Shown: positions 10,358 to 29,776 of the stretch, in pieces
How positions within the stretch are numbered: position 1 is the first letter of the stretch
How the letters are laid out: each line of letters starts with the position of its first letter
Source: Taklimakanibacter albus
GTDB lineage: Bacteria; Pseudomonadota; Alphaproteobacteria; Rhizobiales; Aestuariivirgaceae
Reading direction: 5' to 3'
DNA length: 64,000 nucleotides
Assembly (NCBI RefSeq): GCF_016595235.1
Contig: NZ_JAENHL010000008.1
Location: forward strand, 354,390 to 418,389
Program-made: the position numbers and the translations under genes
Notes under the pieces: generated by a model
The model's database searches: none
Told to the model about the DNA's origin: nothing
Seen by the model: only the letters and a program-made list of their open reading frames with translations

Positions 10358-10369
10358 CACATCCCTCGT

Positions 10370-12795: not shown

Positions 12796-12796
12796 G

Positions 12797-14710
12797 TCAT
12801 TCACCCATCTCAATCAAAGCGATGCCGTATGCGCCGATCTCGATCTCACGGCCGATGCGAGTGGCCTTCTGCCTGTCCAGGAAATCCGCCGCGAGGCCTG
12901 CTGCAGCGAAAGTCTCCTCATCGAGGCGGCGCAAATTTCCACCCTCCGGCAGCGTCACGCGCTGCACTTCGTCCGTCAGATTGGCGAGCCACAGGACGAT
13001 GCGGCCCGCGGCATTGCGGCAAGCGATCGCCCTGACCCGTGCCGGATCGGAGGAGACCGTCCCGGCAACATCGCGGCCGGCGGCGCGTGCCAGGCCGCGC
13101 ACCACGTGATAGATCGGATGGAGAGAGAGGCGGTCACCGCATTCGACAATGCCGAGATCGCCCGCGAGGGCCGCCGGCGTAACGGCGGCGATGCCATTAT
13201 GGGCAGCTTCGGCAAGGGCGCCCAACGCCCAGGCGGCGGCGAAGAGGCCGCGCTGGCGGGGATCACGGCGCACCAGCGTGCGCCGTGTATCGTCGGGATT
13301 GGGCGCCGGCTCGCCATAGGGGCCGCTGTCGAGACCGAGGCTCAAGGCGATCAGCCGATAGGGCATGGCGCCGGCGAAGGCCCGCACCGTCCGCGCCATC
13401 GCCGGCAGCGACTCGAGATTCTCCATCATCGTGCGGTCATCCGCGGCATGGACGACGCTCGCGGCGATATGGGTGATGTAATCGATGAGACCGAAAGGCG
13501 GCCAGTTGCGGTTGAGCTCGGCGAAGAAGCCGAAAGTGCCGCCGCCGATCGTCATCTGCGGGAATACGTTGCGCGCCGCGCCATAGACCACGCCCAGAAG
13601 CGCCAGATCGGGCGGCGGCGGACCGGGCACAAGACGTAAGCGATCCTCGGCAACGGCCACCGCGATCGATTCAGGCTGGACACCGGACTGGCTCAGCATT
13701 TCGGCGAAATCCCTGAGCTCGTGCGCCGGGTCGCGCCGGCACGGCACAACGAGCTCCAGCGCCAACTCCGCGCCCAGGGCCTGTGCCAATTCACCGAGAT
13801 GCCCCAAGCGCTGGACATCGTGATCGGCGCGCGGGTCGAAGCGGGCATTGACGAGCCCGATGCCAGTCCTGCGGCCGAGATCGGCGGCGCGCATCCTCTC
13901 GGCGAGTGTTTCGGTCCCTACCCGCAAGCCGAGGACCGGCATCCGCGCCTGGCTGTCGGCATAGGTGATCGCGACGGGGCGAGGTCCGTTCGCCATGGAT
14001 GGCGCGCTGGGCCGTCCGGAAAACTTCAGCGTTACGCTCTGCGTGGCTTCACTGCCGCCGGCGAGCTTGTAAGGAAATGGCAACGCGAGCGGACGCACAT
14101 AGGTCTTGAACGAGGCATCGAGCCAGTTGCGATGATCCTCCATCTCCCATGTGTCGCCCTCCATCCGGCTAGTCGCCCAAAGGCCGGGTGCGGCCTCATG
14201 GGCAAGGCTCCTGATGTCGAGGAAACACTGTTCGGGATCGATGAGCTCGGGAAACCGCGCTTGCCGCGTCTCGCCATTGGTGTGGGTGATCTCCACCGGC
14301 CGGCCCGCGACGCCGGCCAGCGGATGAAGAATGACGAAGCCTGTCCGGTTGGTGAGGAAATCCACGCGCGGCCGGGCCGTGCCGGTGAAGCGCAATGTCC
14401 CGTCCGCTTCGCCGATGATCTCGGCAAGCCAAGGCAATTCGCCATCGGCGCTGCGACAGAGCGCATCGAATGTGACGCGAAAGCCCGTCTTCTGCTGCTG
14501 CACCACCAGATTGGTGACGAGCGGCTCGGGCGTGTCCCAATTGCGGTCGCGCACCTGCCAGGCAATGGCGCGCAGCACCTCGATGTCGCCATGCCTGATC
14601 CAGCGCAGCGCGCCGTTCTCGAGCGTTGCCGTCAGCGAGCCCGCGGTGAGCGTGAGCCGCGGCGGAACCGGCTGCGACGTGCCGAAGAGTGCGACCGAGC
14701 GTTCAACCAT
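12797..14710 (-). CDS. probable D-apionate lactonase-like / glycosidase-fold protein
   Basis: A 637-residue protein without signal peptide. Residues about 15-240 look like a beta-sandwich (QVRDRNWDTPEP near 52). Residues about 255-520 look like a TIM barrel (IGLVNARFDPRADHD, MTIGGGTFGFFAELNRN, DYITHIAASVVHAADDRTMMENLES). A C-terminal beta domain (about 540-637) has RIVLWLANLTDEVQRVTLP. This layout recalls D-apionate lactonase (ApnL) and related glycoside-hydrolase-like proteins; I make this link from memory of the family. It overlaps the GH140-like gene by eight bases and precedes the DSD1-like gene by one base. If it is ApnL-like, it would open apionolactone in the cytoplasm. A different sugar lactonase or glycosidase is the main alternative. 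Confidence 0.5.
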   Translation of the reverse strand: MVERSVALFGTSQPVPPRLTLTAGSLTATLENGALRWIRHGDIEVLRAIAWQVRDRNWDTPEPLVTNLVVQQQKTGFRVTFDALCRSADGELPWLAEIIGEADGTLRFTGTARPRVDFLTNRTGFVILHPLAGVAGRPVEITHTNGETRQARFPELIDPEQCFLDIRSLAHEAAPGLWATSRMEGDTWEMEDHRNWLDASFKTYVRPLALPFPYKLAGGSEATQSVTLKFSGRPSAPSMANGPRPVAITYADSQARMPVLGLRVGTETLAERMRAADLGRRTGIGLVNARFDPRADHDVQRLGHLGELAQALGAELALELVVPCRRDPAHELRDFAEMLSQSGVQPESIAVAVAEDRLRLVPGPPPPDLALLGVVYGAARNVFPQMTIGGGTFGFFAELNRNWPPFGLIDYITHIAASVVHAADDRTMMENLESLPAMARTVRAFAGAMPYRLIALSLGLDSGPYGEPAPNPDDTRRTLVRRDPRQRGLFAAAWALGALAEAAHNGIAAVTPAALAGDLGIVECGDRLSLHPIYHVVRGLARAAGRDVAGTVSSDPARVRAIACRNAAGRIVLWLANLTDEVQRVTLPEGGNLRRLDEETFAAAGLAADFLDRQKATRIGREIEIGAYGIALIEMGE

Positions 14711-16034
14711 CGCTGATCCCGGTCGAAGTGAGGACCAGCATGGCGTCTTCGTCGAAGGGCGGCGTCAGGATCGCCGGACCTTTCGCCCGTAAGGTTCCAC
14801 CGGAGACGCGCCGGCCGCTCGCCGGGTCGAACCATTCGACGTCGAGCCACGGGCCGTGCAAGCGATCGAGCTGCACCTCGACCGGACGATGAACCGGAAG
14901 ATAGGCCGCGCCCATCCGTCCATCGGCGGTGCGCGCCGCCGTCACCCGGTCGAGGCCACGCGCTTCGCCGAGGCCGGCCGAGACCAATTCGCGATCGAGA
15001 TCAGGCAGGAAGTCGCTCCACGGCAGAGCGCGGAAGTAATCCCCCCACCGCGCCATGGCTTCTGATCCCGGCAGATCGAGGGCCGCCTGCCAGCCCTCGC
15101 CGAACAGCCAGATCGGGTGATTGCCCATGCAATGGCCGTTGCCGCCGCACATCACCGACCAATAGGCCTGGCGGCGGATCTGCTGGGCACTGGCATTGTG
15201 CTCGCTCTCATAAGTCGACTCGATCAGGAAGAACGGCATCACCGGGCGGCGCTGCCAGTCGTCATGCAGCATGCGATGCACGATTCCGTAAGTGTAAGTG
15301 ATGTTGAGATCGAGCCAGTCGGCGTCAGGGAAAGTGTCGGCGGCCGAATATTCCGGGTGGGTGTGGCCGGTCATGAGCGTGGTGACGCCCGCGTCGCGCA
15401 AGCCATGCGCCACCGCGTCAAGGCCGGCCCGTGTCTTCTCCGGATGCCAGTCGCCGCCGATGCACCAGATGATATTGGCGAAGCGGCCGAAGCGGCGACC
15501 GAGATATCTGCCATAAGCACGACAGCCTTCCGGCCCTGTCGCGACGATCTCCTCATACCAGCCATCGAGATGGCGCGAGATGCCGGGTCCGCGGTCACGA
15601 ATGTAGCCGATGTAAGCGGGCGCCAGGATGATGCAGAAGCCGCGCTGCGCCGCCGCCTCGAGCACCTGCTCGGCCGCATCGAAATAGGCGTCGTTGGGCG
15701 TCGTGAGATCGCCCGGCGTCGTGAAAGGCTCGCGCCCGGCGCGGTCGCGCGGCGGGTCCTGCGAATAGAGATGCTCGATCAGACTGACGATGAGCGTGTT
15801 GAAGCCCTTGGCCTTGCGGTCGTCGAGATACTGGACGGCTTCCGCGAAGCTGAGATTGGCGATGAGCGACCAGGCGGCATCGCCCTGGATCAGGAACGGC
15901 TTGCCCGCGGCATCGAGAAGACGGCGCCGGTCGGCGGAGATCGCCAAAGGATAACGTGCCGCTTCTGCCGGTGCCGCCGCCAGCACGCGCCCCAATTTGG
16001 GCTCGAGCGGATGAACCTGGTGATGGCGATGCAT
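14703..16034 (-). CDS. DUF4038 glycoside hydrolase, apiosidase-like (GH140-like)
   Basis: A 443-residue TIM-barrel glycosidase of the DUF4038 type, the group that contains GH140 apiosidases. Landmarks: LDAAGKPFLIQGDAAWSL (residues 40-57), RKAKGFNTLIVSLIEH (73-88), NIIWCIGGDWHPE (187-199) with candidate catalytic Asp195, and FFLIESTYESE (268-278) with candidate Glu272 or Glu276. A C-terminal beta domain (about 350-440) ends the protein. No signal peptide is present, so it should act on imported small glycosides in the cytoplasm. The ribosome site AAGGAGG is inside the end of the ATPase gene before it. Membership in the broad family is good; apiose specificity is not proven. Confidence 0.75.
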   Translation of the reverse strand: MHRHHQVHPLEPKLGRVLAAAPAEAARYPLAISADRRRLLDAAGKPFLIQGDAAWSLIANLSFAEAVQYLDDRKAKGFNTLIVSLIEHLYSQDPPRDRAGREPFTTPGDLTTPNDAYFDAAEQVLEAAAQRGFCIILAPAYIGYIRDRGPGISRHLDGWYEEIVATGPEGCRAYGRYLGRRFGRFANIIWCIGGDWHPEKTRAGLDAVAHGLRDAGVTTLMTGHTHPEYSAADTFPDADWLDLNITYTYGIVHRMLHDDWQRRPVMPFFLIESTYESEHNASAQQIRRQAYWSVMCGGNGHCMGNHPIWLFGEGWQAALDLPGSEAMARWGDYFRALPWSDFLPDLDRELVSAGLGEARGLDRVTAARTADGRMGAAYLPVHRPVEVQLDRLHGPWLDVEWFDPASGRRVSGGTLRAKGPAILTPPFDEDAMLVLTSTGISDG

Positions 16035-16037
16035 CTC

Positions 16038-17129
<1,092 letters not shown>

Positions 17130-17138
17130 GGCAGCATC

Positions 17139-17993
17139 CTATTGTTTCAAAGCGCCGGCCAGCGAGCGCGCCAGGAACTGGCGCTGCAGCACGAAGAAGA
17201 AGACGCCGATCGGCACCAGCGACATCACGGCGGACGCCGACCACACGCCGTAATTGGCGCCGCCATGGGCGCGCAGAGCGGCGATGCCGACGGTCAGCAC
17301 CTGCAGCTCATCGCTGGTCGTGGCGATCAGGGGCCAGGTGAAGCTCATGAACTGGTCGGTGAAGATGATGACCGCGAGGACGACGAGGCCCGGCTTGATC
17401 AGCGGCAGAACGATACGCCAATAGATGGCGAATTCGCTCAGGCCATCGAGGCGCGCGGCATTTTCGAGATCGCGCGGCAGGCCTAAGATGAACTGCCGCA
17501 TCAATATGGCGCCGAGCGGATTGGCGAGCGGCGGCAGGATGAGCGCCCAATAGGTGTTGATGAGGCCGAGACCCGACACCATCGACCATAGAGGCACGAT
17601 GAGCGCGCCGATCGGCACCATCAGCAGAATGACCATCAGGAGAAAAACGAGGCGCCGGCCGGTGAATTCGATCTTGGCCAAGGCATAACCCGCCATGGAA
17701 TCGAGGAAGACCTTCAGCACCGTGACGCTCGTCGCGACAAAAAGCGTGTTGAACATCCAGCGCAGAAAGCCGGTGTTCCACAGAAGATCGCGGTAATTGC
17801 CGAAATAGGGCGGGATCGGCAGAAGCTTCGGCGGATAGCTGAAGATCTCGGTGCTGTCCTTCAGCGATGCGAGAAGCACATAGTAGAAAGGCGCCACCAG
17901 GATGAAGGCGATGAGCCCCAGGACGAGATGGCGGCCGAATTCCCGCCTGCGCCTTTGCCTCACCCGGATACGCGCGTGCTGTTCGGCCGTCAT
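17139..17993 (-). CDS. carbohydrate ABC transporter permease (MalG/UgpE type)
   Basis: A 284-residue inner-membrane permease. The first helix (VLGLIAFILVAPFYYVLLAS) is followed by five more and by the MalG-type EAA loop ENAARLDGLSEFAIYWRIVLPLIKP near residue 190. The start ATG overlaps the stop of the partner permease by four bases (ATGA at 17993), which fixes it. It works with the next upstream gene product as the channel heterodimer. Confidence 0.93.
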   Translation of the reverse strand: MTAEQHARIRVRQRRRREFGRHLVLGLIAFILVAPFYYVLLASLKDSTEIFSYPPKLLPIPPYFGNYRDLLWNTGFLRWMFNTLFVATSVTVLKVFLDSMAGYALAKIEFTGRRLVFLLMVILLMVPIGALIVPLWSMVSGLGLINTYWALILPPLANPLGAILMRQFILGLPRDLENAARLDGLSEFAIYWRIVLPLIKPGLVVLAVIIFTDQFMSFTWPLIATTSDELQVLTVGIAALRAHGGANYGVWSASAVMSLVPIGVFFFVLQRQFLARSLAGALKQ

Positions 17994-18949
17994 CAGTCCC
18001 CTCCCCGCCGACCGCGCAGCAGCCGCATCTGGACGAGGGTGAGGAGCAGGATCGTGACAATGAGGACGAGCGAAATCGCCGAGGCGACGCCGATCTTGTT
18101 GGTGGCGCCGAACATATAGAGCCAGACCCTGTAGATGACCGTCGTCGTCGCGGTGCCAGGCCCGCCACTGGTGAGGACGAGAGCCGTGTCGAAGACCTGC
18201 AAGCCCCAGATCGTCGCCACGACGACGGCGAAGAAGATGATCCGGCGCATCAGCGGCAGGGTCAGATAACGCAGGCGCGCGAAGGCCGAAGCGCCGTCGA
18301 GCTCGGCCGCCTGATAGAGCTCCTTCGGGAGGCCGATAATGGCGGCGACGAAGAACAACGCCCAATAGCCGACATTGCGCCAGACATCGAGGATCGCCAG
18401 CACGGTCAGGGCATGATCGGCGCCGAGCCAGACGACAGGCTTGCCGCCGAGGCCGCGCACGACCCCATTGAACAGGCCGAAATCGACATTGGTCATGAAG
18501 AGCCAGATGAGGGCCGCAACCACGCCCGGCACCAGAACCGGGAAATAGATGAGGAAGCGATAGATCGAGCCGCCCCGCTCGATGCGCGCCAGCAAGAGAG
18601 CGATGGCAAGCGCGCCGACCAGAATCAAAGGCACCGAGATCAACGCGAAGACCAGCGTGTTGGTGACCGCGGCCGAGGCGCCGACAATGTCGGGAAGATC
18701 GATGAAATTCTTGAGGCCGACGAATTTCGTGTCGCCGCCGAGCCCGCCCGAGCGCAGGCTCCACCACACGGTGCCGAGAACGGGAAGCACGAGGAAGATC
18801 ACGAAACACAGGAACATGGGCGCGAGGAACGCCCAGCCGAGGACCTCGCGCCTGAGCCGCCTGTTGCGGCTCAGGCGCCGGTGCTCTTCGGGCGCTAAGC
18901 GCAGCCGGCCGCTCGGAGCCGCCGGCATGACCCTGGCATCAAGGCCCAT
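17993..18949 (-). CDS. carbohydrate ABC transporter permease (MalF/UgpA type)
   Basis: A 318-residue permease of the CUT1 family with about six membrane helices. The first helix (AFLAPMFLCFVIFLVLPVLG) begins near residue 38. The EAA loop ELDGASAFARLRYLTLPLMRR lies near 220. The start at ATG 18949 has GAGAGGAAAG upstream. It lies 29 bases after the binding-protein gene and overlaps the next permease gene. Confidence 0.93.
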   Translation of the reverse strand: MGLDARVMPAAPSGRLRLAPEEHRRLSRNRRLRREVLGWAFLAPMFLCFVIFLVLPVLGTVWWSLRSGGLGGDTKFVGLKNFIDLPDIVGASAAVTNTLVFALISVPLILVGALAIALLLARIERGGSIYRFLIYFPVLVPGVVAALIWLFMTNVDFGLFNGVVRGLGGKPVVWLGADHALTVLAILDVWRNVGYWALFFVAAIIGLPKELYQAAELDGASAFARLRYLTLPLMRRIIFFAVVVATIWGLQVFDTALVLTSGGPGTATTTVIYRVWLYMFGATNKIGVASAISLVLIVTILLLTLVQMRLLRGRRGGD

Positions 18950-18978: not shown

Positions 18979-20319
18979 TCAGAGGCCGACTTCGTGGATG
19001 ACGATCTTCTCGACATTGGCCACGGCCTCGGCCGGCGTCGACTTGCCGGTATAGCAGTTCTGGATCTCCGCCTCGGCGAGGCCCTCGACCGTCGCCCATT
19101 GTGGGAAATTCTCCAGGCCCACCGCATGTTTTTCGAACAAGGGCAGCGCCTCGGCGAGCTGCGGCACGGCATTGGTGCCATAGCCGCTCTGGGCGGCGTC
19201 GGTGCGCGCCGGATAGGTGCCCGAATTGTCCGCCCAATAAGCGTCGTTGGCGCCATTCGTCCAGAAGGTGATCACTTCCCACATCAGGTCCTGGTCGGGC
19301 GATTTGGCGTTGACCATGTAATAGGTGACGTCGTTGAAATTCACCTGGGACACGGGGCCCGGAGGATAGGGCAAGAGCTTCCAGTCGAAGGGCATCTTCT
19401 TGGGCAGGACGGTCGTGCCGGCGAGATCCGATGACAGGATGGCGAGCTTGCCGGCGGCGAAAGCGGCGGGTGCCGCATCATAGCCGTAGGTGCCGAGCGG
19501 CGGCGCGATACCTCGCTTGAAGAGATCGGCCATCTGCTCGGTGACCTTGACGACGTCCGGCAGGTTCACATTGGGCTTCTTGAGATCGGGCGTGAGATAA
19601 GAACCGCCGGCCGAACGCAGCCGCTGATACCATTCGCCATAGCCGCCAAGCTGGATGCCGATGCCGAGACCATAGGTCTCGCCTTCCTTTGTCATCTTGG
19701 CGATGCAATCGACGAAGCCATCCCAGCTGTCGATGAAGCTCGCATCGTGGCCGGCTTCCTTCACCTTGTCCATGTTCACGAACAAGGCGTCCTCGACATG
19801 CCAGCTGATCGGCAGGCCGAGCAGCTTGGGACCATAACCTTCAGTGCGCTCCCAATAGAGATATTTGGCCTTCTCGGCGGCAAAAGCCGGATCGTTGATG
19901 CGCGCCGTCAGATCCGCGAAACCGCTGCCCGCCTGATAATCGGGATAGGAGCTTTCGGTCGTCATATAGATGTCGTGGCCGCCGCCGGCGACAGACGCGC
20001 CGATCTCCTGGGTGGCGGTGCCCCACTGATAGAGGCGGAAGTCGAAGGTAACGTCGGGATGCAGCACATTGAAGGCTTCGGCGATGTGCTTGTGATGCGC
20101 GACCTCGCCTTCAGACCACGGTCCGACCAGGAAGCGGACATGGCCTTTGAGGCTCTTGGCCGCGGCATAGGCCGGGCGGACCCCGGCGGCGATCGAAGCG
20201 ACCGCGGCGGTCGAAAGGCCGAGTTGCAGGAGCCCCATGACAAAGCCGCGGCGCGACAGCCTGGCCTCGTGATGAGCTTCCGAAAGCGCAGAGATTTGCC
20301 GGTGAATTCGCTGATTCAT
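18979..20319 (-). CDS. sugar ABC transporter substrate-binding protein with Tat-type signal
   Basis: Extracellular solute-binding protein, family 1, 446 residues. ATG 20319 is preferred because GGAG lies nine bases upstream; an ATG five codons earlier has poor spacing. The N-terminus has a twin-arginine motif (LSRRGFVMGLL, residues about 20-30), a hydrophobic stretch and an AYA cleavage site, so export by Tat is likely, suggesting folding or cofactor loading before export. The mature part has the usual GHDIYMTTESS and TFWTNGANDAYWADNSGTYPAR segments. It opens the ten-gene operon and lies directly behind the palindromic operator described at 20381. Confidence 0.92.
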   Translation of the reverse strand: MNQRIHRQISALSEAHHEARLSRRGFVMGLLQLGLSTAAVASIAAGVRPAYAAAKSLKGHVRFLVGPWSEGEVAHHKHIAEAFNVLHPDVTFDFRLYQWGTATQEIGASVAGGGHDIYMTTESSYPDYQAGSGFADLTARINDPAFAAEKAKYLYWERTEGYGPKLLGLPISWHVEDALFVNMDKVKEAGHDASFIDSWDGFVDCIAKMTKEGETYGLGIGIQLGGYGEWYQRLRSAGGSYLTPDLKKPNVNLPDVVKVTEQMADLFKRGIAPPLGTYGYDAAPAAFAAGKLAILSSDLAGTTVLPKKMPFDWKLLPYPPGPVSQVNFNDVTYYMVNAKSPDQDLMWEVITFWTNGANDAYWADNSGTYPARTDAAQSGYGTNAVPQLAEALPLFEKHAVGLENFPQWATVEGLAEAEIQNCYTGKSTPAEAVANVEKIVIHEVGL

Positions 20320-20380
20320 GACACGTGTCTCCATCCCTGTTGAGTGCCGCCGGATGACAAAATGGGTCTCCGTTGGCTTA

Positions 20381-20434
20381 TGTACTGATCATGAGTACAA
20401 TGTCGTTATAAGCCGCCCGAACCGCGTCTGTCAA
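20381..20434 (-). promoter_or_regulatory. sigma70 promoter with palindromic operator for the sugar-uptake operon
   Basis: Read on the minus strand: -35 TTGACA (20429-20434), an 18-base spacer, -10 TATAAC (20405-20410), five bases, then the palindrome TGTACTCATGATCAGTACA (20381-20399). The operator would cover the transcription start, a layout for repression. The same arrangement, with a matching palindrome, precedes the peptide-uptake operon at 23066. The MocR regulator gene starts 100 bases away in the opposite direction and is the likely binder. Confidence 0.75.
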
Positions 20435-20534
20435 TCATGAATCCCCAATTTTACGGTGCGATTGCGTTGGGCCGCGGCTCTCGGTAAGCTAGCGACTCGA
20501 AAATGTACCAACAAAGAAGCAATGTGGAGTTTGG

Positions 20535-21953
20535 ATGAGCGAATGGTATTCGGGCTGGCCCGTCCGGCGTGACGACGTGGCCACCTCGCTCGCCGACACC
20601 CTGGAGGAGGCGATCCGCTGCGGCAGGCTCCTGCCCGGCGCGCAGCTTCCCACCCATCGCGAATTGTCGAAGCGCCTCGGCGTTGCTGTAAGCACCGTAT
20701 CACGCGCGTATGCCGAGGCTGGACGGCGCGGCCTCATCGGCGGCACGGTTGGACGCGGCACATTCGTTCTAACCCCCGACAAGGACAACGACCTCATCTC
20801 CAACCGCGAGGTGCTGCGTCCGCTCGAACGTCTCTATCTGCCGCTGATGCAGCGCGAGGATGCGATCAATCTCAGCCTCAACGAGCCTTTGTCCGACGGC
20901 ACGGGCGAGCGCCTGCGTACGGCGCTGAAGGTCATCGCCAAGAAGCCCGACCTCGACGATCTCGCGCATTACCAGCCGCCGCAGGGCCAGCTGGAGCATC
21001 GCGTCGCCGGCGCCGTCTGGCTGCGCGAGCTCGGTGTCGAGGCGCCGGCCGATGACATCTATGCGGTGTCGGGCGGACAGACGGCACTGATGACCATCTT
21101 CCTCGCTCTGGCGCGGCCGGGCGACACCGTGCTGACCGAGGAGCTGACCTGGCCGGGGGCGCTGTCGGTCGGACGCCTCACCGGCATCCGCCTGATGCCA
21201 GTCGCGATCGATGAGGAAGGCCTCGTGCCGCAGGCCTTCGAGGCCGCCTGCCGCATCCATCACCCGCGCTTCGTCTATACGATGCCGACCCTGCACAACC
21301 CGACCATGGTGACGGCGAGCCTCGCCCGGCGCCAGGAGATCGTGCGGATCGCGCGCGAATACAACGTGCTGATCGTCGAGGACGATGCTTACGGCTTCCT
21401 GGTGGAGCCGCGCGTCACGCCCTACTGCCAGCTGGCGCGCGACATCACCATCTACCTCACCAGCCTGTCGAAATCGATCGCGCCGACCTTGCGCATCGGC
21501 TTCATGGCCGTGCCGCCGCGCCTGCACAAATCCATGCGCGCCTCGACGCGGGCGACGACCGCCATGGTGTCGCCCTTGCTGCTCGAGCTGACGACGCATC
21601 TCATCAACAGCGGCGCCGGCCGCGAGGCGATCGAATTCCAGACCAAGGCGGCGCGCCACCGGCAGGAGATCGCGGCGTCGATCCTGGGCCTGGCGCACCC
21701 GGCGCCGGCCTCGCTGCATTACTGGCTGAAGCTGCCGAGCGACATGAGGAGCGCCGTCTTCGTCGCCGACGCCCTGGCGCGCGGCGTCGCGGTGACACCT
21801 GGCGATGCCTTTTCCGTCATGCCGGGACAGGATCCCGGCGGCGTGCGCCTGTGCCTGTGCAGCGAAGCGAGCGAGGCCCGCGTGAAGCAGGCCCTGACGA
21901 TCATCGCCGAACTGGTCCACGCCGATCACGGCGCCGCGCTGCCGATTGTTTGA
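20535..21953 (+). CDS. MocR-type (GntR/aminotransferase fusion) transcriptional regulator
   Basis: A 472-residue fusion. Residues about 8-78 form a GntR winged helix-turn-helix (LPTHRELSKRLGVAVSTVSRAYAE). Residues about 100-465 form a fold-type I aminotransferase domain in which SLSKSIAPTLRIGFM (near 310) holds the PLP-binding Lys. MocR proteins sense amines or amino acids through PLP. GGAG lies five bases before ATG. The gene lies between two divergent uptake operons that share the same palindromic operator. A half-site TGTACC at 20503-20508 sits just before its own start, compatible with autoregulation. The effector might be an amino compound released by the neighbouring enzymes. Confidence 0.92.
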   Translation: MSEWYSGWPVRRDDVATSLADTLEEAIRCGRLLPGAQLPTHRELSKRLGVAVSTVSRAYAEAGRRGLIGGTVGRGTFVLTPDKDNDLISNREVLRPLERLYLPLMQREDAINLSLNEPLSDGTGERLRTALKVIAKKPDLDDLAHYQPPQGQLEHRVAGAVWLRELGVEAPADDIYAVSGGQTALMTIFLALARPGDTVLTEELTWPGALSVGRLTGIRLMPVAIDEEGLVPQAFEAACRIHHPRFVYTMPTLHNPTMVTASLARRQEIVRIAREYNVLIVEDDAYGFLVEPRVTPYCQLARDITIYLTSLSKSIAPTLRIGFMAVPPRLHKSMRASTRATTAMVSPLLLELTTHLINSGAGREAIEFQTKAARHRQEIAASILGLAHPAPASLHYWLKLPSDMRSAVFVADALARGVAVTPGDAFSVMPGQDPGGVRLCLCSEASEARVKQALTIIAELVHADHGAALPIV

Positions 21954-21976
21954 GTTTAGGAGGTGCCGCCTGCACT

Positions 21977-22156
21977 CCCCTTCTCCCGCCTGCGGGAGAA
22001 GGTGGCCGAAGGCCGGATGAGGGTGTTCCCTCAACCATCGCATAGCCCGTTGAGAATTGAAGAATCTCGTTATTTTGTCCTCCTGAGAAACTGTCGCGCT
22101 GAACCGACCCCCTCATCCGCCCTATCGGGCACCTTCTCCCGCAAGCGGGAGAAGGG
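21977..22156. repeat. pair of inverted dispersed repeats (REP-like), convergent-gene terminator region
   Basis: Two copies of one element face each other. The first copy (21977-22023) reads CCCCTTCTCCCGCCTGCGGG and continues through GAGAAGGTGGCCGAAGGCCGGATGAGGG. The second copy (22109-22156) is its reverse complement with few changes. Each copy holds two hairpins (CTTCTCCCGC/GCGGGAGAAG and GGCC/GGCC type). This element type is common between genes in Rhizobiales. The pair lies between the convergent MocR and PhzF genes and can terminate transcription from both sides. Confidence 0.75.
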
Positions 22157-22199
22157 AGAATATTCGGACATGCGATCGCGCCGGGATGACGAATGAAAA

Positions 22200-22988
22200 T
22201 CAGATATGAATCGTGCCTTGCATATAGAGGGCACATTGGCCGGCGAGCCGCACCTCATCGCCGAGAAGAGCGCAATGCAATTCGCCGCCGCGCGGTGAGA
22301 GCTGCAACGCCACATGCTCGCGGCGCCCGAGGCGCTCGGACCAATAGGGCACCAGCGCCAGATGCGCCGAGCCGCAGACCGGATCTTCCGGCAATCCCTC
22401 TTTGGGCGCGAATGCCCGCGACACGAACTCACTCGCTCGGCCGGGCGCCGTGATGATGACGCCGTCGCGGTCGAGCGTCATGAGCGCATTCATGTCGGGC
22501 GCGACAGCGGCCACCGTCGTCTCGCTGTCGAGAATGGCAAAATACTGATTCTGATTGACGCGCACTTCGCGCAACGGGACGCCGAGGGCGGTGGCGAGCG
22601 CCGGCGGCACCTCGCACCGCTCGGCCGGCAAAGCGGGTAACGTGATGGCGAGCAGATCATCATCGAGCTGCGCCACCTTGAGCGCACCTTTCCGGCGCTG
22701 CAGCACGGCCTGCGCGAGACCAGGCCGCAGGATACGCAGGACCACATGGGCCGCGGCGAGCGAGGCGTGCCCCACGAGGCCCAATTCGCCGATCGACATG
22801 AAATAACGGATTTCTAAATGCGGGCCGCGATCGACCAGGAAGGCGACGACGGCGCCGCCGCCATGCTCGGCCGTGATCGCCTGCAGCAGCTCGTCCTCCG
22901 GCCATTCGTCGAGACAACATATGAGAGCCGGGTTGCCCGCGAACACACGCGCAGCAAAGGCGTCGATCTGGAAGACATCACATTTCAT
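22200..22988 (-). CDS. PhzF family isomerase-like protein
   Basis: A 262-residue protein of the PhzF/YddE diaminopimelate-epimerase-like fold. The N-terminal half has FQIDAFAARVFAGNPALI (residues 6-23) and GELGLVGHASLAAAHVV (about 67-83). The C-terminal half has LPEDPVCGSAHLALVPYW (about 208-225). In PhzF a catalytic Glu sits in the NLSET-type segment near residue 45; here the matching stretch reads EHGGGAVVAF, with no Glu at that site by my alignment. It may therefore catalyse another reaction. The ribosome site is weak. It is convergent with the MocR gene and divergent from the peptide operon. Confidence 0.82.
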   Translation of the reverse strand: MKCDVFQIDAFAARVFAGNPALICCLDEWPEDELLQAITAEHGGGAVVAFLVDRGPHLEIRYFMSIGELGLVGHASLAAAHVVLRILRPGLAQAVLQRRKGALKVAQLDDDLLAITLPALPAERCEVPPALATALGVPLREVRVNQNQYFAILDSETTVAAVAPDMNALMTLDRDGVIITAPGRASEFVSRAFAPKEGLPEDPVCGSAHLALVPYWSERLGRREHVALQLSPRGGELHCALLGDEVRLAGQCALYMQGTIHI

Positions 22989-23065
22989 GGGTCGCCCACA
23001 TTGTCATGCATTTAAGAGCAATCATCGTTTCCCCCTATTACTCTCACAATTTTGTGATTCATCCG

Positions 23066-23119
23066 TTGACAGGTGAAAGTTTTGTCATCTAATCTGATCT
23101 TGTACCGACTATCGGTACA
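23066..23119 (+). promoter_or_regulatory. sigma70 promoter with palindromic operator for the second peptide-uptake operon
   Basis: The elements are -35 TTGACA (23066-23071), an 18-base spacer, -10 TAATCT (23090-23095), five bases, then TGTACCGACTATCGGTACA (23101-23119), a perfect 8-3-8 palindrome. The geometry matches the promoter at 20381-20434, and 14 of 19 operator positions are identical. The operator begins where transcription should start. The binding-protein gene begins 32 bases later. Confidence 0.78.
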
Positions 23120-23151: not shown

Positions 23152-24699
23152 ATGACTGCACGACTTGGCGGATTACTGGCGCTCGCAGCGAGCGCTCTCT
23201 TCGTTGCGGCACCCGCTCAAGGTGAAGAGGGAGCGCCCCGCAAAGGCGGTACGCTCACCATGGCGCGCGACAGCGAGCCCTTGACCCTCAATCCCATCGG
23301 CGCCGGCGACAATGGCTCGATCTTCATGATCGTCCAGGTCTTCGACACGCTGGTCGAAACCGCGGACGCGCCGTTGCCGCAATCCGCCCTCGCCACAGGC
23401 TGGACAGTGTCGGACGATGCGAAGACCTGGACCTTCGCGCTGCGCGAGGGCGTGAAATTCTCCAATGGCGATCCGCTCACCTGCGACGACGTGAAATTCT
23501 CGATCGACCGTTTCGCCGATCCAAAGGTCAATACCAGCTATGGCGGCTTCGGCGCCGCCATCGCGCAGACCGAATGCGCAGGCCCCTCTTCCTTCGTCGT
23601 CAAGCTCAAGGCCCCGCAAGGCGCTTTCCTCGACTATCTCTCGACCTTCATTCCCTCGATCGTCCCCAAGGCCCTCTATGAGAAGATGGGCGACAAGGCC
23701 TTCAGCGAGAAGCCGGTCGGCTCCGGCCCCTTCATGGTCAAGGAATGGGTGCGCGGCCAGCGCCTGGTGCTCGAGCGCAACCCTTATTACTGGAAAAACG
23801 GCCAGCCCTATCTCGACCAGATCGTCGTCAATTACGTGCCCGATGAAAACACGCGCATGCTCAAGGTCGAATCAGACGAGGCGCAGATCGCGACCGAAGT
23901 ACCCTATGCGCAGATCGAGCGCGTCGCGGCCCTCGACCATGTCGATGTCCAGATCGAGAATGTCATGGCGTGGGATGCCGTCTGGTTCAACAGCCGCAAG
24001 GCGCCTTTCAACGACCCGCAGGTCATCCGGGCTCTGAACTACGCGACGCCCAAGGAGGCGATGCTCAAAACCTTGATGCATGGCGCGGGGGATATCGCCA
24101 ATCATGTCATCGCCAGGGTCAAATATTGGGACCCGGCGGTTGAGGCCTATCCTTATGACCTCGCCAAGGCGAAGGAGGCGCTCGCCAAATCCTCGGCGCC
24201 GCAAGGCTTTGCCCTGTCCTGCCTCATCGTGGCAGGTGATCAGTTCGAATTGCAGCAGGCGCAGATCCTGCAGTCGGAATGGGCGAAGATCGGCGTCACG
24301 ATGGAAATCCAGGCGGTCGATACGGGAACGATCTGGACGCGCTGGGGCAGCGGCGATGAAAACTGCTTCACCTTCACCGGCGCGGGTCTCTCGAGCGATG
24401 CGCTCTCCGACGACAATCTCGCCGTCGTCTTCTTCGACTTCACCGGCGGCATCGAATCCTTCTGGACCGGCTGGAACAACAAAGACGCCATTGCCCTCGT
24501 CAAGGAAGCGGACGGCACCATCGATGAGGAGAAGCGCAAGGCCGCCTTCCACAAATTGCAGCGGCTGGCAATGGCGGAATACCCCGCCGTGCCCTTGTTC
24601 TTCATCAAGGCGCGCACCGCCGTGTCGGACAAGGTGAAGGGCTTCAAGACCCTCCCCGTCAAATGGTGGAACCTCGAAGACGTGTGGCTGGCGCCCTGA
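23152..24699 (+). CDS. peptide ABC transporter substrate-binding protein (family 5)
   Basis: Periplasmic binding protein of the SBP_bac_5 family, 515 residues. A Sec signal peptide (LGGLLALAASALFVAAPAQG, residues 5-24) precedes the mature GGTLTMARDSEPLTLNPIG. Other landmarks are FALREGVKFSNGDPL (near 95) and GSGPFMVKEWV (near 192). GGGGAGG precedes the ATG. It is the first gene of a plus-strand operon with two permeases, two ATPases, a cupin and an SDR, under a promoter that shares its operator with the sugar operon on the other side of the MocR gene. Ligand unknown; opines and amino-sugar conjugates are also bound by this family. Confidence 0.93.
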   Translation: MTARLGGLLALAASALFVAAPAQGEEGAPRKGGTLTMARDSEPLTLNPIGAGDNGSIFMIVQVFDTLVETADAPLPQSALATGWTVSDDAKTWTFALREGVKFSNGDPLTCDDVKFSIDRFADPKVNTSYGGFGAAIAQTECAGPSSFVVKLKAPQGAFLDYLSTFIPSIVPKALYEKMGDKAFSEKPVGSGPFMVKEWVRGQRLVLERNPYYWKNGQPYLDQIVVNYVPDENTRMLKVESDEAQIATEVPYAQIERVAALDHVDVQIENVMAWDAVWFNSRKAPFNDPQVIRALNYATPKEAMLKTLMHGAGDIANHVIARVKYWDPAVEAYPYDLAKAKEALAKSSAPQGFALSCLIVAGDQFELQQAQILQSEWAKIGVTMEIQAVDTGTIWTRWGSGDENCFTFTGAGLSSDALSDDNLAVVFFDFTGGIESFWTGWNNKDAIALVKEADGTIDEEKRKAAFHKLQRLAMAEYPAVPLFFIKARTAVSDKVKGFKTLPVKWWNLEDVWLAP

Positions 24700-24721
24700 T
24701 CCACGGCCGGAGACGCTCATC

Positions 24722-25660
24722 TTGTCGCTTATTGCCTTTGCGGGACGGCGGCTGGCGCAAGCCATCCCCGTCCTCCTCATCATCACGGTCGCGGCTTTCT
24801 CGGTGATCCATCTCGTTCCGGGCGATCCGGCGCGCGTGATGCTGGGCTCGCGCGCCACCGACGAGGCGGTCCAAGTGCTGCGCGAGCAGCTCGGCCTCGA
24901 CAAGCCGCTCGTCACGCAATATCTCGATTTTCTGAAGGCTGCCATGCGGCTCGATTTTGGCGACTCCCTGTTCCAGCGCACCGCCATCGGCCCCATCGTG
25001 GCGGCGCGCGCCGTGCACAGCCTGGCGCTCGTCGCCTATGCCGTCCTGATCTCGCTCGTCATCGCGGTGCCGCTTGCCCTTCTCTCCGCCATCCGGCGCA
25101 ATCTCCTCGCCGATCACGTCGTGCGGGCGCTGACCACGCTCGCCTTCTGCATGCCCTCCTTCTGGACAGCCCTGCTCCTGGTGCTCCTGTTCAGCATCCG
25201 CCTCAAATTCTTTCCGACATCGGGCCTGGGCGACAGCCCACTGGCCTATCTGGCCAGCCTGACGCTGCCCGCGGTCAGCATCGGCCTCTATCTCACCCCC
25301 ATTCTGCTGCGCAGCCTGCGCGCCAGCCTCATCCAGACACTGGGCGCCGAATTCGTCGAGGCGGCCCGCGCCAGGGGCTTCGGCGAGGCGCGCATACTCT
25401 TCAAACATGTGCTGCGCAATTCGCTCATCGCCATGCTGACCATCCTCGGCATCAATGTCGGCTTCCTCATCTCGGGCGCCGTCATCGTCGAGAATGTGTT
25501 TTCCATACCGGGCCTCGGCTCGCTGATGGTCGCGGCCATCGTCCAGCGCGACTATCCGGTGATCGTGGCCCTAACGCTCGTCTTCGGCGTCGTCGTGGTC
25601 GCCGCCAACTTCCTGGTCGATCTCTCCTATGCGCTGCTCGATCCGAGGATCCGGCAATGA
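24722..25660 (+). CDS. peptide ABC transporter permease (DppB type)
   Basis: A 312-residue permease with the DppB N-terminus (RRLAQAIPVLLIITVAAFS), the landmark HLVPGDPARVMLG near residue 38 and the coupling loop EAARARGFGEARILFKH near 215. It starts at TTG 24722 with GGAG nine bases upstream, 22 bases after the binding-protein stop. It is coupled to the DppC gene by a four-base overlap. Confidence 0.94.
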   Translation: MSLIAFAGRRLAQAIPVLLIITVAAFSVIHLVPGDPARVMLGSRATDEAVQVLREQLGLDKPLVTQYLDFLKAAMRLDFGDSLFQRTAIGPIVAARAVHSLALVAYAVLISLVIAVPLALLSAIRRNLLADHVVRALTTLAFCMPSFWTALLLVLLFSIRLKFFPTSGLGDSPLAYLASLTLPAVSIGLYLTPILLRSLRASLIQTLGAEFVEAARARGFGEARILFKHVLRNSLIAMLTILGINVGFLISGAVIVENVFSIPGLGSLMVAAIVQRDYPVIVALTLVFGVVVVAANFLVDLSYALLDPRIRQ

Positions 25661-26535
25661 GGCCGTTCCCACCCGGCATAGAAGAGGACGCCTGGCTCAG
25701 ACTCACAAAGCGCGCCCGGCTCGACCGCCGCTGGGCGACGATCTCGCTTTATGCAGGGATCGCGATCGTCGCCTTCATCGCGGGCCTGAGCGCCGCGGCG
25801 CCGTTTCTCGGCCTCAAGGATCCGACCGCGACCGATCTCATGAACGCCCTCCAGCCGCCATCGCTTGCTTTCCCCTTCGGCACCGACGATCTCGGCCGCG
25901 ATATCTTCGCCCGCGTCGTCTATGCCGGTCGCGTCGATCTCGTCTTCGGCATCGTCGTCACCTATGTCTCGCTCGTCATCGGCCTGAGCATCGGCGCGAT
26001 CTCCGGTTATTTCGGCGGGCTCATCGATACGGTCATCATGCGCATCGTCGATCTGGTGATCTCCTTCCCCTTCATCATCCTCATTCTCACCATCGCCGCC
26101 ATTGTCGGACCGGGGTTGACCGGCGCCTATATCGGCGTGATCGCGGTGAGCTGGGCGCTCTATGCACGGCTGACGCGCGGCGAAATGCTGGCCATCCGCC
26201 GGCGCGAATTCATCCTCAATGCCGAGACGCTCGGCTACAGCGCGCCACGTGTCGTCTTCGTGCATGCGCTGCCCAATCTCCTGCGCGCCAATCTCGTCTT
26301 CTCGATGTCGGATATCGTTCTCAACATCCTCACCCTCGCCGCCCTCTCCTATCTGGGTCTCGGGGTGGCGCCGCCGACGCCCGAATGGGGCGAAATGATC
26401 GCGCAAGGCCAGAAGAACCTCTTCAATGCCTGGTGGATATCGACCTTGCCCGGCCTCGTCATCGTGCTGGCCGGCATCGGCTTCAGCCTGATCGGCGACG
26501 GGCTCGCCGACCGGCTCGATGAAAGCGGGCGCTGA
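25657..26535 (+). CDS. peptide ABC transporter permease (DppC type)
   Basis: A 292-residue permease with the DppC signature FPFGTDDLGRDIFARVVYAG near residue 75 and the coupling region FILNAETLGYSAPRVVFVH near 190. About six membrane helices are evident. The N-terminus (RPFPPGIEEDAWLRLTK) is cytoplasmic. It overlaps both neighbouring genes (four bases upstream, one base downstream), so its boundaries are well fixed. Confidence 0.94.
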   Translation: MRPFPPGIEEDAWLRLTKRARLDRRWATISLYAGIAIVAFIAGLSAAAPFLGLKDPTATDLMNALQPPSLAFPFGTDDLGRDIFARVVYAGRVDLVFGIVVTYVSLVIGLSIGAISGYFGGLIDTVIMRIVDLVISFPFIILILTIAAIVGPGLTGAYIGVIAVSWALYARLTRGEMLAIRRREFILNAETLGYSAPRVVFVHALPNLLRANLVFSMSDIVLNILTLAALSYLGLGVAPPTPEWGEMIAQGQKNLFNAWWISTLPGLVIVLAGIGFSLIGDGLADRLDESGR

Positions 26536-27521
26536 TGCAGACGGCATCGTCACCAGCTCCCCTGCTCGCGGCGCGCGGCCTCTCGGTCGGGCTCGTCAAC
26601 CGGCATGGCGCCTTTCTGGCGACCAAGCGCGTGTCGCTCGCGGTCGATCGCGGACAAAGCCTCGGGCTTCTGGGCGAATCGGGCTGCGGCAAGAGCATCA
26701 CCTTGCGCGCGTTGCTCGGGCTCGTCCCGCATCCGGGCGAGATAGTGGGCGGCAGCGTCACCTGGAAAGGCCGTGACTGGCGAAGCTTGAGCAAAAGCGA
26801 GATCAGGCGCATCCGCGGCAAGGACATCGCCATGATCTTCCAGGATCCGGCCTCCTGTCTCAATCCGGTCTTCACCATTGGCGACCAGGTGACCGAAACC
26901 TTGCGCCTCAAGCTGTCGCTCAAGGCCAAGGCGGCCCGCGAGCTGGCGCGTGATCTCCTCGACCAGGTCGGGATCCCGGCGCCGGAAGAACGCCTGCGGC
27001 TTTACCCGCATCAGCTGTCGGGCGGCATGCGCCAGCGGGTGATGATCGCGATGGCAATCGCGACCGAGCCCGATCTGCTGCTCGCCGATGAGCCGACGAC
27101 GGCGCTCGATGTCACCATCCAGGACCAGATCCTGACCCTGCTGGCCGGCCTCAAGGAGCGCAACCGCATGGCGATGATACTGGTTTCGCATGACGTCGGC
27201 GTGGTGGCGCAGAATTGCGACCTCATCGCCGTCATGTATGCGGGGCACATCGTCGAGTGGGGGCCGACATATGATGTTCTCAGAACGCCGCGTCATCCCT
27301 ATACCAGAGGCCTCCTGGCGGCGATCCCGCGGCTCGAGGTCAGCGGCGGACGGCGGCCTTTGCAGACCATCGCCGGCGCGCCGCCCACGCCGGGCGAGCT
27401 GCCGGAAGGCTGCCCGTTCCGGCTGCGCTGTTCGTCGGCGCGCGCCGAATGCGCAACGATCCCCGTGACGCTCGACCACAAGCCGCCGGGCCATGGGTCG
27501 GCCTGTCCGATCGTGACGTGA
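26535..27521 (+). CDS. peptide ABC transporter ATP-binding protein (DppD type)
   Basis: A 328-residue ATPase. Walker [10 protein letters not shown] near residue 45, Q-loop [12 protein letters not shown], signature [15 protein letters not shown] near 155, Walker [14 protein letters not shown], and the C-terminal peptide-transporter domain (CPFRLRC). The start ATG shares one base with the permease stop. It pairs with the next gene product. Confidence 0.95.
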
Positions 27522-27528
27522 GGGGCCG

Positions 27529-28533
27529 ATGATCGAAACTCCACTTCTGAGCGTCACCAGCCTGCACAAGAGCTTCGCCGGCAGGGCGTCGCTTGTAGGG
27601 CTGCTGCAGGGCAAGCCGGCGCGGCGACTGACCGCGCTCGATGACGTCTCGCTCACCCTCGGGCGCAATGAGGTGCTGGGCATCGTCGGTGAATCGGGCA
27701 GCGGCAAATCGACCATCGCGCGCTGCATCACCCGCCTCGAAAAGCCGGATCGGGGTGAAATCACCTTCGCCGGCCAGGATGTGTGGCAGGCACGCGGGGC
27801 GAAGCTGCGTGGGATCCGCAAGGATCTGCAGATGATCTATCAGGACCCTTACGGCGCCCTCAATCCGCGCATGAGCATCGGCCGCGCCATCGCCGAGCCG
27901 GCGCTCGTGCATGGCCTCATCGGCAAGGACGGCGCCCGGGCGCTCGCTTATGAGCTGCTCGACCGCGTCGGCCTGCCCCGGTCGGTCGCCGAGCTCACGC
28001 CGCGCGCCCTCTCCGGCGGGCAGCGCCAGCGGGTCGCCATTGCCCGCGCTTTGGCCCTCAAGCCTCGTGTGATCATCGCCGATGAGGCGGTGAGCGCGCT
28101 CGATGCCTCTGTCCAGGCGCAGATCCTCAATCTGTTCGGCGAGCTCATGCGCGACCTCTCCTTGAGCATGATCTTCATCTCGCATCAGCTCTCGGTCATC
28201 GCCCATCTGGCGGACCGTGTGGCCGTCATGTATCTCGGCCGCATCGTCGAGACCGGCGCGACGGCGGATGTGTTCGCCCGGCCGCGCCATCCTTATACGG
28301 CGGCGCTCCTCAAGGCGCATCCGCATCTCGAGGCCAGACGATCGCAGACGCCGGCGCTCGCGGGCGAAATCCCCTCGGCCTATGCGATCCCGGAGGGCTG
28401 CCGCTTCAACACACGCTGCCGCTATGCCGAAACACGCTGCCGGCTGAGCGATCCGCCGGCCGCGGCTTTCGCCCACGGACATGAAGCCTGGTGCCATGTC
28501 CTGCCCGATCTCGAAACTCACACCGACATCTAG
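27529..28533 (+). CDS. peptide ABC transporter ATP-binding protein (DppF type)
   Basis: A 334-residue ATPase with Walker A GESGSGKST, Q-loop YQDPYGALNPRMS, signature LSGGQRQRVAIARAL, Walker B VIIADEAVSALDA and the closing CRFNTRCRYAETRC. It begins seven bases after the partner ATPase with GAGGG as ribosome site. It completes a five-component importer; the next gene (cupin) follows after ten bases. Confidence 0.95.
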   Translation: MIETPLLSVTSLHKSFAGRASLVGLLQGKPARRLTALDDVSLTLGRNEVLGIVGESGSGKSTIARCITRLEKPDRGEITFAGQDVWQARGAKLRGIRKDLQMIYQDPYGALNPRMSIGRAIAEPALVHGLIGKDGARALAYELLDRVGLPRSVAELTPRALSGGQRQRVAIARALALKPRVIIADEAVSALDASVQAQILNLFGELMRDLSLSMIFISHQLSVIAHLADRVAVMYLGRIVETGATADVFARPRHPYTAALLKAHPHLEARRSQTPALAGEIPSAYAIPEGCRFNTRCRYAETRCRLSDPPAAAFAHGHEAWCHVLPDLETHTDI

Positions 28534-28543
28534 GAGGAAGACC

Positions 28544-28987
28544 ATGTACCCGATCAACTATTCGAAATTCGCCTATTACAAGATCGAACCCGACGATCTC
28601 GACTCGGTCGAGCCCAAGCCGATCGAATTCCTGGGCGGCGGCCTGCACCGCATGGTGGGGGTGGGCATCGAAGAGCCCTGCTGCCAGGTCGTCTATGAGG
28701 ACTTCTTCCCCGGCCATGAATATAAATGGACGACCTGGGTGGATCAGATCGATGTCGTGACCTCGGGCAAAGCCGAGATCACCTATCATCAGCCGCCCTC
28801 GCTCGAAGAGAAACGCACCATCCTGGTCGAGGCGCCCTGCATCTATCTGATCCCGCGCGGGACGCCGCTGGTCTGGAAGGTTATCGGCGACGAGGTCTTC
28901 CGGCATTTCTCCTTCGACGTGCCGCATCCGCAGTTTCCCTCCGACCTCGCCAAAAGCGTAAAAGCCAAACGTGCCATCGCAAAGTAA
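28544..28987 (+). CDS. cupin-fold small protein of unknown substrate
   Basis: A 147-residue protein, probably a single cupin barrel. ATG 28544 follows a strong AGGAGG. The first cupin motif region (EDFFPGHEYKWTTWVDQIDVVTSGKAEI, in two strands) and the second (YLIPRGTPLVWKVIGDEVFRHFSF) are recognisable, but the usual His pair of the metal site is only partly present. It is too small to be a typical dioxygenase and may be an isomerase or a binding/regulatory protein acting on the imported compound. It is co-transcribed with the peptide importer and the SDR. Confidence 0.7.
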   Translation: MYPINYSKFAYYKIEPDDLDSVEPKPIEFLGGGLHRMVGVGIEEPCCQVVYEDFFPGHEYKWTTWVDQIDVVTSGKAEITYHQPPSLEEKRTILVEAPCIYLIPRGTPLVWKVIGDEVFRHFSFDVPHPQFPSDLAKSVKAKRAIAK

Positions 28988-28999
28988 GGAAGATCGCCG

Positions 29000-29776
29000 A
29001 TGAAGATCGTGAAAGAACGTTTCGCCGGCCGCCGGGCCGTGGTCACGGGCGCCAGCGCCGGCATCGGCCGCGCCACCGCCTTGCGCCTTGCCGCCGAGGG
29101 GGCGCGGGTCGGGCTGGTAGCGCGACGGCGGGAAGCCCTTGAAGCCACGGCAGATGAAATCCGCGCCGCCGGCGGTGAGGCTCTGGTCCTCATCGCCGAC
29201 AGCTCGGCCGAAAGCGAGATCGGGAGCGCGATGGACAAAGCCGCAAGCGAATGGGGCGGCCTCGATATCATCGTCTCCAATGCCGGAATCGAGCTTCTCG
29301 GCCAGGATGACCGGGTCGACCGCCTCGAGACCGCGATCTGGGAAAAGCTGATCACGACCAACCTCACGGGTCAGTTCCTGACCTGCAAGCATGGCGCGCG
29401 GCATCTTCTCGCCGCCGGCGGCGGCGCCATCGTCTGCCTCGGCTCCAACTGCGCCTATCTCGGCATGGCAACCAACGAGCCGGCCTACAGTGCCAGCAAG
29501 GGCGGCGTGCTGGCGATGATGAAAGTGATGGCGATCGACTATGCGAGGCTGGGCATCCGCGTGAATATGGTCATCCCGGGCTTTATCGACACCCCCATGA
29601 ACGCGCCGGTGATGAAGGACACGAAGGAGCTCGCCTATTGGAGCAACCAAATTCCAATTGGGCGCGCCGGCACCGCGGATGAGTGTGCATCGGCGATCCT
29701 GTGGCTCGCGTCCGATGAAGCGAGCTACTGCATCGGCACGACGCTCATCGTCGATGGCGGTCAGGCTTCCATTTAG
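29000..29776 (+). CDS. SDR family NAD(P)-dependent oxidoreductase
   Basis: A 258-residue classical short-chain dehydrogenase. The nucleotide-binding motif TGASAGIGRATAL is at residues about 15-27, NAG near 93, and the active-site YSASKGG near 165. The C-terminal CIGTTLIVDGGQ ends the fold. AAGGAAG precedes ATG. The Arg pair after the second strand (LVARRREAL) suggests NADP. It is the last gene of the MocR-linked peptide operon; oxidation of a hydroxyl on the imported substrate is the likely task. Its stop codon is inside a long palindrome that should terminate the operon. Confidence 0.9.
   Translation: MKIVKERFAGRRAVVTGASAGIGRATALRLAAEGARVGLVARRREALEATADEIRAAGGEALVLIADSSAESEIGSAMDKAASEWGGLDIIVSNAGIELLGQDDRVDRLETAIWEKLITTNLTGQFLTCKHGARHLLAAGGGAIVCLGSNCAYLGMATNEPAYSASKGGVLAMMKVMAIDYARLGIRVNMVIPGFIDTPMNAPVMKDTKELAYWSNQIPIGRAGTADECASAILWLASDEASYCIGTTLIVDGGQASI

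Follow-up and report, generated by a model that had tools for sequence, protein, structure and literature searches.

Background

The closest described relatives of the system reported here are EnuR, EhuR and EutR, the MocR-type regulators of ectoine catabolism. According to the published account, EnuR is a repressor that depends on pyridoxal phosphate (PLP), has its operators over the promoter and responds to amino metabolites of its own pathway as inducers; its PLP peptide was mapped as TIYLTTFTK, and a Lys302His exchange makes the protein a constitutive repressor (PMC8739950). Regarding the family as a whole, Suvorova and Rodionov (2016) report 86 MocR groups, with tentative roles for only 38 of them. 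Sites of two inverted boxes are given there for 57 regulogs and 150 regulons (20% of the regulons), most motifs contain TGT or TGG, RidA genes are found in five regulogs, and PdxR is described as using both direct and inverted repeat layouts (PMC5320631). Here we analyse a MocR gene of Taklimakanibacter albus and two 19-bp palindromes, one at each of the two operons flanking it, in a stretch of 64,000 nucleotides (contig NZ_JAENHL010000008.1, positions 354,390 to 418,389; hereafter the window, to whose first letter all coordinates refer). From the comparisons given below, it is likely that this MocR is a PLP-dependent local repressor which would sit over the transcription starts of a catabolic regulon until an amino compound from the pathway relieves the repression.

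The window system resembles the EnuR, EhuR and EutR systems in its MocR architecture, in a similar PLP-lysine peptide and, as far as those systems are described in the source above, in a palindromic operator over the sigma-70 promoter of an uptake-plus-catabolism cluster and in amino-metabolite inducers, which for our locus are a prediction. It differs in the operator, TGTAC-N9-GTACA here and ATTGT-N6-ACAAT for EnuR, in the genes controlled, in an EhuR score under the cutoff and in a separate paralogue that does score as EhuR in the same genome. With the regulons of PMC5320631 it shares the two inverted boxes, the TGT core and the RidA gene, whereas the strings GTAC and D-amino are absent from the main text of that paper; the group may already be in its supplementary regulon tables, without a name. 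Judged by its sequence, the system fits the MocR pattern of that survey as an added member, and by curated score it is not EnuR. The likeness to PdxR, as reported there, is that one regulator would have two site layouts, here the palindrome at the operons and, in the MocR leader, an element of another kind, but PdxR controls PLP synthesis and the window MocR gave 199 bits on the PdxR model (NF052282), whose cutoff is 320. Two core enzymes of the regulon belong to the families of BhcC/D-threonine aldolase and of DadA; nevertheless, the BhcC score does not reach half of the cutoff, and the cluster proteins scanned included no further enzyme of the beta-hydroxyaspartate cycle.

A literature search returned nothing linking MocR with D-threonine aldolase, nor apionate lactonase with apiose catabolism, and to judge by titles and abstract openings, none of the papers that it found on MocR, D-amino acids and repressors deals with this system.

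Two operons with the same promoter and palindrome layout

The regulator, the two promoters and the two palindromes are as follows.

20535-21953, plus strand: MocR-subfamily regulator of 472 amino acids, with a GntR winged helix at residues 18-78 and an aminotransferase-like domain at 109-456
20381-20399, minus strand: 19-bp palindrome, candidate operator of the leftward operon, over the predicted transcription start
20405-20434, minus strand: predicted leftward promoter, with TTGACA (20434-20429), an 18-bp spacer, TATAAC (20410-20405) and five bases before the palindrome
23101-23119, plus strand: 19-bp palindrome, candidate operator of the rightward operon, also upstream of the divergent phzF; counterparts in G001, G003 and G438
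23066-23095, plus strand: predicted rightward promoter, with TTGACA (23066-23071), an 18-bp spacer, TAATCT (23090-23095) and five bases before the palindrome

An earlier, sequence-only reading of this DNA had proposed that both operons begin with this arrangement, and every element was found at its place; the identity of 14 of 19 letters between the palindromes was the same on recounting. Complementary pairs number 8 of 9 in each palindrome, and since the window holds 22 19-mers with 8 or 9 pairs, palindromy alone is common. The distinctive features are the letters common to both palindromes together with the same promoter spacing. Regarding the consensus of that reading, the sites are real, but it was written in an asymmetric form; made symmetric, it reads TGTACYNANNNTNRGTACA. 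Likewise, the MocR gene does lie between the operons, but not alone, because a PhzF-family gene stands between it and the peptide operon.

Allowing three mismatches, the earlier consensus matched four times in the window (the two sites on both strands) against 0.06 expected, and none of 100 shuffled windows reached four matches. In the whole genome TGTACYNANNNTNRGTACA with at most one mismatch gave exactly two sites, both of them the window palindromes. Random occurrence over the genome had been named as a possible refutation; with the earlier consensus and three mismatches, the genome has the two palindromes and one further match, at C7:566773. This third match, with three mismatches and 7 of its 9 pairs complementary, falls within open reading frames and was set aside.

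The palindrome follows the regulator

Orthologues of the window MocR were found in five other genomes, with identities of 98% (G001), 92% (G003), 67% (G438), 54% (G437) and 53% (G355); G000 denotes the window's own genome. The six proteins form one clade with a support of 100/100 in a tree of 27 rows. Row L099 of this tree was miscut, its locus being at the edge of a contig, and L089 is absent from it; neither affects the clade. The orthologue is present in 3 of the 69 genomes of the window's family (G000, G001 and G003) and in 3 of 28 of the family of G355, which is a different one. At an E-value of 1e-95, the searches of the class (385 genomes) and the phylum (398 genomes) returned only the window's own genome; apart from the family set of 69, these genome sets are samples of larger groups. 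Among plasmids 358 records matched, every one below 60% identity, and a contig search with two very specific peptide patterns gave one match of 98% (the record of G001) and two remote ones.

The expectation that the motif tracks the MocR orthologues held, with a palindrome beside five of the six genes and a decayed copy at the sixth, in G355. Searching the five genomes with TGTACYNANNNTNRGTACA and at most one mismatch gave 10 sites (two each in G000, G001 and G003, three in G438 and one in G437), and all 10 fall in the regulon clusters; each palindrome of G438 and G437 differs from the motif at one position. Conversely, no site was found at this threshold in five sister genomes that have no orthologue, namely G002 and G004 of the window's genus and G074, G439 and G440, three of 25 in the family of G355. 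Nor was there any site, with up to two mismatches, at 62 loci (264 kb; the gene and about 1.5 kb on each side) around other MocR homologues, paralogues included. As had been anticipated, the orthologous operons of G001, G003 and G438 have the motif upstream, and in G437 it precedes a transporter gene beside MocR.

The sites are better conserved than their flanks between G000 and G003. Site letters are kept at 18 of 19 positions for the operator of the sugar operon and at 17 of 19 for the other, whereas the neighbouring non-coding columns are kept at 32/46, 62/108, 70/128 and 24/51, the second of these being the MocR side of the sugar-operon site. The layout of promoter and palindrome (35 bases from the -35 box to the palindrome) holds at both operons in G000, G001 and G003, and a TTGACA or TTGACT was found 37 to 39 bases off the Dpp and ApnL sites of G438 and the sites of G355 and G437.

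Genes of the cluster and their rearrangement in G438

The leftward operon, from its first gene to its last, the rightward operon and the phzF gene comprise:

18979-20334, minus strand: SBP_bac_8 sugar-type solute-binding protein of an ATP-binding cassette (ABC) transporter, first gene of the leftward operon, from a family scan
16038-18949, minus strand: ABC permeases and ATPase of the leftward operon, from translations judged by eye, with homologues in the same order in G001 and G003
14703-16034, minus strand: apiosidase-like glycosidase (PF13204)
12797-14710, minus strand: ApnL (D-apionate lactonase)-like protein, 554.4 bits on NF049900, under its cutoff of 750
11656-12813, minus strand: D-3-hydroxyaspartate/D-threonine aldolase-like PLP enzyme of the BhcC/DSD1 kind, below the BhcC cutoff
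10370-11629, minus strand: DadA, D-amino acid dehydrogenase, 434.9 bits on PRK00711, above its cutoff of 383
9854-10360, minus strand: RidA-like protein, last gene of the leftward operon, 54.7 bits on TIGR00004, below its cutoff of 106.25
22200-22988, minus strand: PhzF-family isomerase/epimerase, divergent from the peptide operon; its G438 counterpart has its own palindrome
23152-28533, plus strand: DppABCDF-like peptide-type ABC transporter of five genes, the first named from a family scan and the others by eye
28544-28987, plus strand: small conserved protein, perhaps a cupin, with a sub-threshold EutQ match only
29000-29776, plus strand: short-chain dehydrogenase/reductase (SDR), end of the peptide operon, from a family scan

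With scores under the curated cutoffs, the names ApnL, BhcC and RidA signify kinship only, whereas DadA passes. The aldolase-like protein obtained 323.8 bits on the BhcC model (NF045642, cutoff 690) and matched 6qkb with an E-value of 3.6e-77, which supports its kinship to D-3-hydroxyaspartate and D-threonine aldolases. The small protein that is perhaps a cupin keeps its start and sequence in four genomes. Five plasmid regions, taken from 229 records with ApnL-like and 105 with aldolase-like homologues, were of mixed context and pointed to no clear substrate.

The strongest single test is G438, which belongs to another family, has an orthologue of 67% identity and has its genes rearranged. There, phzF is on the opposite side of MocR from the peptide operon, and the SDR gene is inverted and followed by the ApnL-like, aldolase, DadA and RidA genes. 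On the two contigs examined, C123 and C108, there was no homologue of the sugar solute-binding protein, of its permeases or of the apiosidase; these contigs probably adjoin, because both break inside DppF. Three palindromes were found: before DppA, before phzF and directly before the ApnL-like/aldolase/DadA/RidA genes, the last of them on C108, a different contig from that of the MocR gene. Therefore, the palindrome marks transcription units and not a fixed position beside MocR, and the predicted regulon keeps its membership though the genes are shuffled.

These comparisons also bear on the idea that the resemblance of the two window promoters is a recent duplication or chance and not common control. 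The own genome has only the two sites, and the other equally palindromic 19-mers of the window would fit such a view; nevertheless, the promoters have hexamers, spacing and palindrome in common while their spacers and flanks differ, and each palindrome is retained in G003 despite diverged flanks. The three G438 sites, which mark three units, already contradict it unless they are non-functional, and we consider it very improbable.

Several neighbouring features were also observed. The apiosidase-like enzyme carries a Collagen_bind_2 domain, and its gene shares an ABC uptake operon with genes for D-amino acid enzymes. At 8137-9789, a gene that converges on the end of the sugar operon encodes a thioredoxin-reductase-like protein, which has a cyclic-nucleotide-binding domain at its N-terminus. 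The stretch 21975-22160, where MocR and phzF converge, holds an inverted repeat of the CTTCTCCCGC...GCGGGAGAAGG kind that was seen by eye, perhaps a terminator-like or repetitive intergenic element. In G003 a tripartite ATP-independent periplasmic (TRAP) transporter (DctP, DctQ and DctM; L077:13029-15982) is inserted between MocR and phzF. A tentative site at L077:16095-16113, TGTACTTCCGTCAAGTACA in the sense of this operon, has two mismatches and no matching promoter geometry, and an AATGTAC half-site also precedes the DctP start.

A second element in the MocR leader

The leader of the MocR gene holds a different element:

20502-20527, plus strand: operator-like element AATGTACC-N9-RCAATNNGG in the MocR leader, containing the TGTACC half-site

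The half-site had been noticed before the MocR start and is indeed there (20504-20509), 31 bp before the ATG, the same distance as in G001, G003 and G438. In these four whole genomes, AATGTACC-N9-RCAATNNGG with at most one mismatch has five matches, against none for the control: the four MocR leaders and the leader of the G438 SDR gene, with none outside the regulon. As the pattern was drawn from these same sequences, this result shows uniqueness and not an independent discovery. The element can be read, from its letters, as a compressed palindrome or as a direct repeat spaced by 19 bp.

The regulator and the proposed mechanism

The protein has the MocR architecture, with matches to PF00392 at residues 18-78 (45 bits, against a cutoff of 27) and to PF00155 at 109-456 (100.6 bits, against a cutoff of 19.7). 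The predicted PLP lysine is K313 in the peptide TIYLTSLSK (305-313), and it is kept in three aligned sequences. Its best NCBIfam model was EhuR (NF052286, 411.8 bits), which might suggest that we are dealing with the ectoine regulator EnuR/EhuR itself and with a cluster for ectoine use. This score is under the cutoff of 480, though, while the paralogue L064 of the same genome reaches 504.6 bits on that model, above the cutoff. Furthermore, no ectoine enzyme was the best NCBIfam or Pfam match among the cluster proteins scanned (the transporter genes being only partly scanned), and the reported EnuR consensus, ATTGTnnnnnnACAAT, is a shorter palindrome. The ectoine assignment is thus extremely improbable.

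Repression is favoured because the operator covers the expected transcription start, and relief by an amino compound is proposed because EnuR works in this way and the window PLP peptide resembles that of EnuR. In the model, a PLP-loaded MocR dimer on the 19-bp palindrome, five bases past the -10 box, would block transcription of both operons. Uptake and breakdown of the substrate would yield a compound with a free amino group, which would form an external aldimine with the PLP on K313, so that the DNA is released. Both transporters would then rise together with the ApnL-like, aldolase, DadA, RidA-like, PhzF, cupin-like and SDR proteins. MocR probably would also limit its own synthesis through the related leader element. 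The inducer is probably a D- or beta-hydroxy-(D-)amino acid of the aldolase or DadA steps, which is a guess from the enzyme families.

A different possibility is that MocR binds the palindromes but activates, or does both. GabR is an activator. TauR is given as an activator too (PMC5320631), so that characterised MocR factors do include activators. Nevertheless, in both operons of G000, G001 and G003 the palindrome is downstream of the -10 box and over the expected start, where an activator would obstruct the polymerase, and EnuR, the nearest characterised relative by family score, is described as a repressor, with predicted operators that overlap the core of the promoter (PMC8739950). Activation is therefore unlikely.

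Points against the proposed regulon

Several observations weigh against the proposed repressor and its regulon. The orthologue set is small, six in all, and three of its members come from a single genus. Regarding the motif, it is not rare by count, since a control pattern written backwards had between 0 and 4 matches per strand per genome. With zero mismatches the motif occurred in 5 of the 397 order genomes and the backwards control in 12 of 397, the control sites being taken by count only, and when three mismatches were allowed a match was present in 90 of 100 genomes and the control counts were similar. We therefore rejected raw motif counts as evidence, the control being equally common or commoner; because counts do not beat the control, the case rests on the location of the sites and their co-occurrence with the regulator.

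Furthermore, eight perfect matches to the degenerate pattern were found in 4 of the 397 order genomes that have no orthologue (G170, G177, G230 and G397), in which no match to this MocR was obtained at 1e-70. The perfect matches in G397 and G170 are inside open reading frames, and that of G177 is 50 bp 5' of one frame and within another on the opposite strand. G230 has five sites on four contigs; of the four sites examined, three are beside similar open reading frames of 277/309 amino acids and one is within a frame. In the orthologue genomes, the phzF site of G438 has no clear promoter beside it, and G355, with an orthologue of 53%, has only the decayed site with three mismatches, TGTGTTGTCCATCAGTACA. 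This copy precedes the operon adjoining MocR, whose later genes include homologues of the aldolase-like protein (44%) and of DadA (52%). Likewise, neither TGTAC nor GTACA occurs within 250 bp upstream of the matched MocR start in G355 and G437; in G437, MocR may have no promoter of its own, because it is close behind an SDR gene.

A GntR protein of another kind, for example of the NanR/FadR type, might read the palindrome, MocR being only its neighbour. Palindromes are generally bound by GntR factors, as PMC5320631 puts it, and NanR-like genes do occur near MocR in G437 (L112:5391-6302) and G355 (L107:15046-15948), whose products could bind there. Moreover, a similar palindrome precedes another gene in genomes without this MocR. 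Against this, no NanR-like gene was recognised in the window cluster, and MocR is the one transcription regulator that could be recognised between 9.8 and 29.8 kb, where 10 proteins were judged by Pfam, one more by NCBIfam and the others by eye. The sites also follow the MocR orthologue across two families, and a related half-site is in the MocR leader in four of the six orthologue genomes. We thus regard a reader other than MocR as quite unlikely.

The palindrome just mentioned, TGTRCTGATNATCAGTACA with one variant, is a different conserved one, at L138:5063-5081, L137:3948-3966 and L139:5390-5408. It stands three bases after a TATAGT box and 3' of genes that look gatB-like by eye, and the gene after it is a glutathione S-transferase in L138, the one scanned. 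It belongs to same-family genomes without this MocR, and we took it as a different system and rejected it as part of the same regulon.

Conclusions

Tentatively, and with less confidence than in the repressor itself, the findings can be read together. The clade may define an undescribed pathway for a conjugate of a sugar- or lactone-like part with a beta-hydroxy-D-amino acid, and the same protein might read two operator codes. The 19-bp palindrome would shut the catabolic operons, and the half-site element AATGTACC-N9-RCAAT, in the mocR leaders and in the leader of the SDR gene in G438, would give a milder autoregulation. Modular reuse of the operator may then have recruited the sugar ABC transporter and the glycosidase in one genus, and possibly the TRAP transporter in G003.

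If the proposed regulon is true, the palindrome could be used for finding genes of the pathway, and a MocR that had not been characterised gains a predicted operator and regulon together with a few candidate inducers. The regulon would also bring three proteins together in one pathway, namely a D-amino acid dehydrogenase, an enzyme like D-threonine aldolase and an ApnL-like protein, and the ligand of the regulator would help to name the substrate of that pathway. Thus, in this organism two operons for nutrient uptake and the genes that process D-amino acids appear to be switched on together by one regulator through one type of palindrome.

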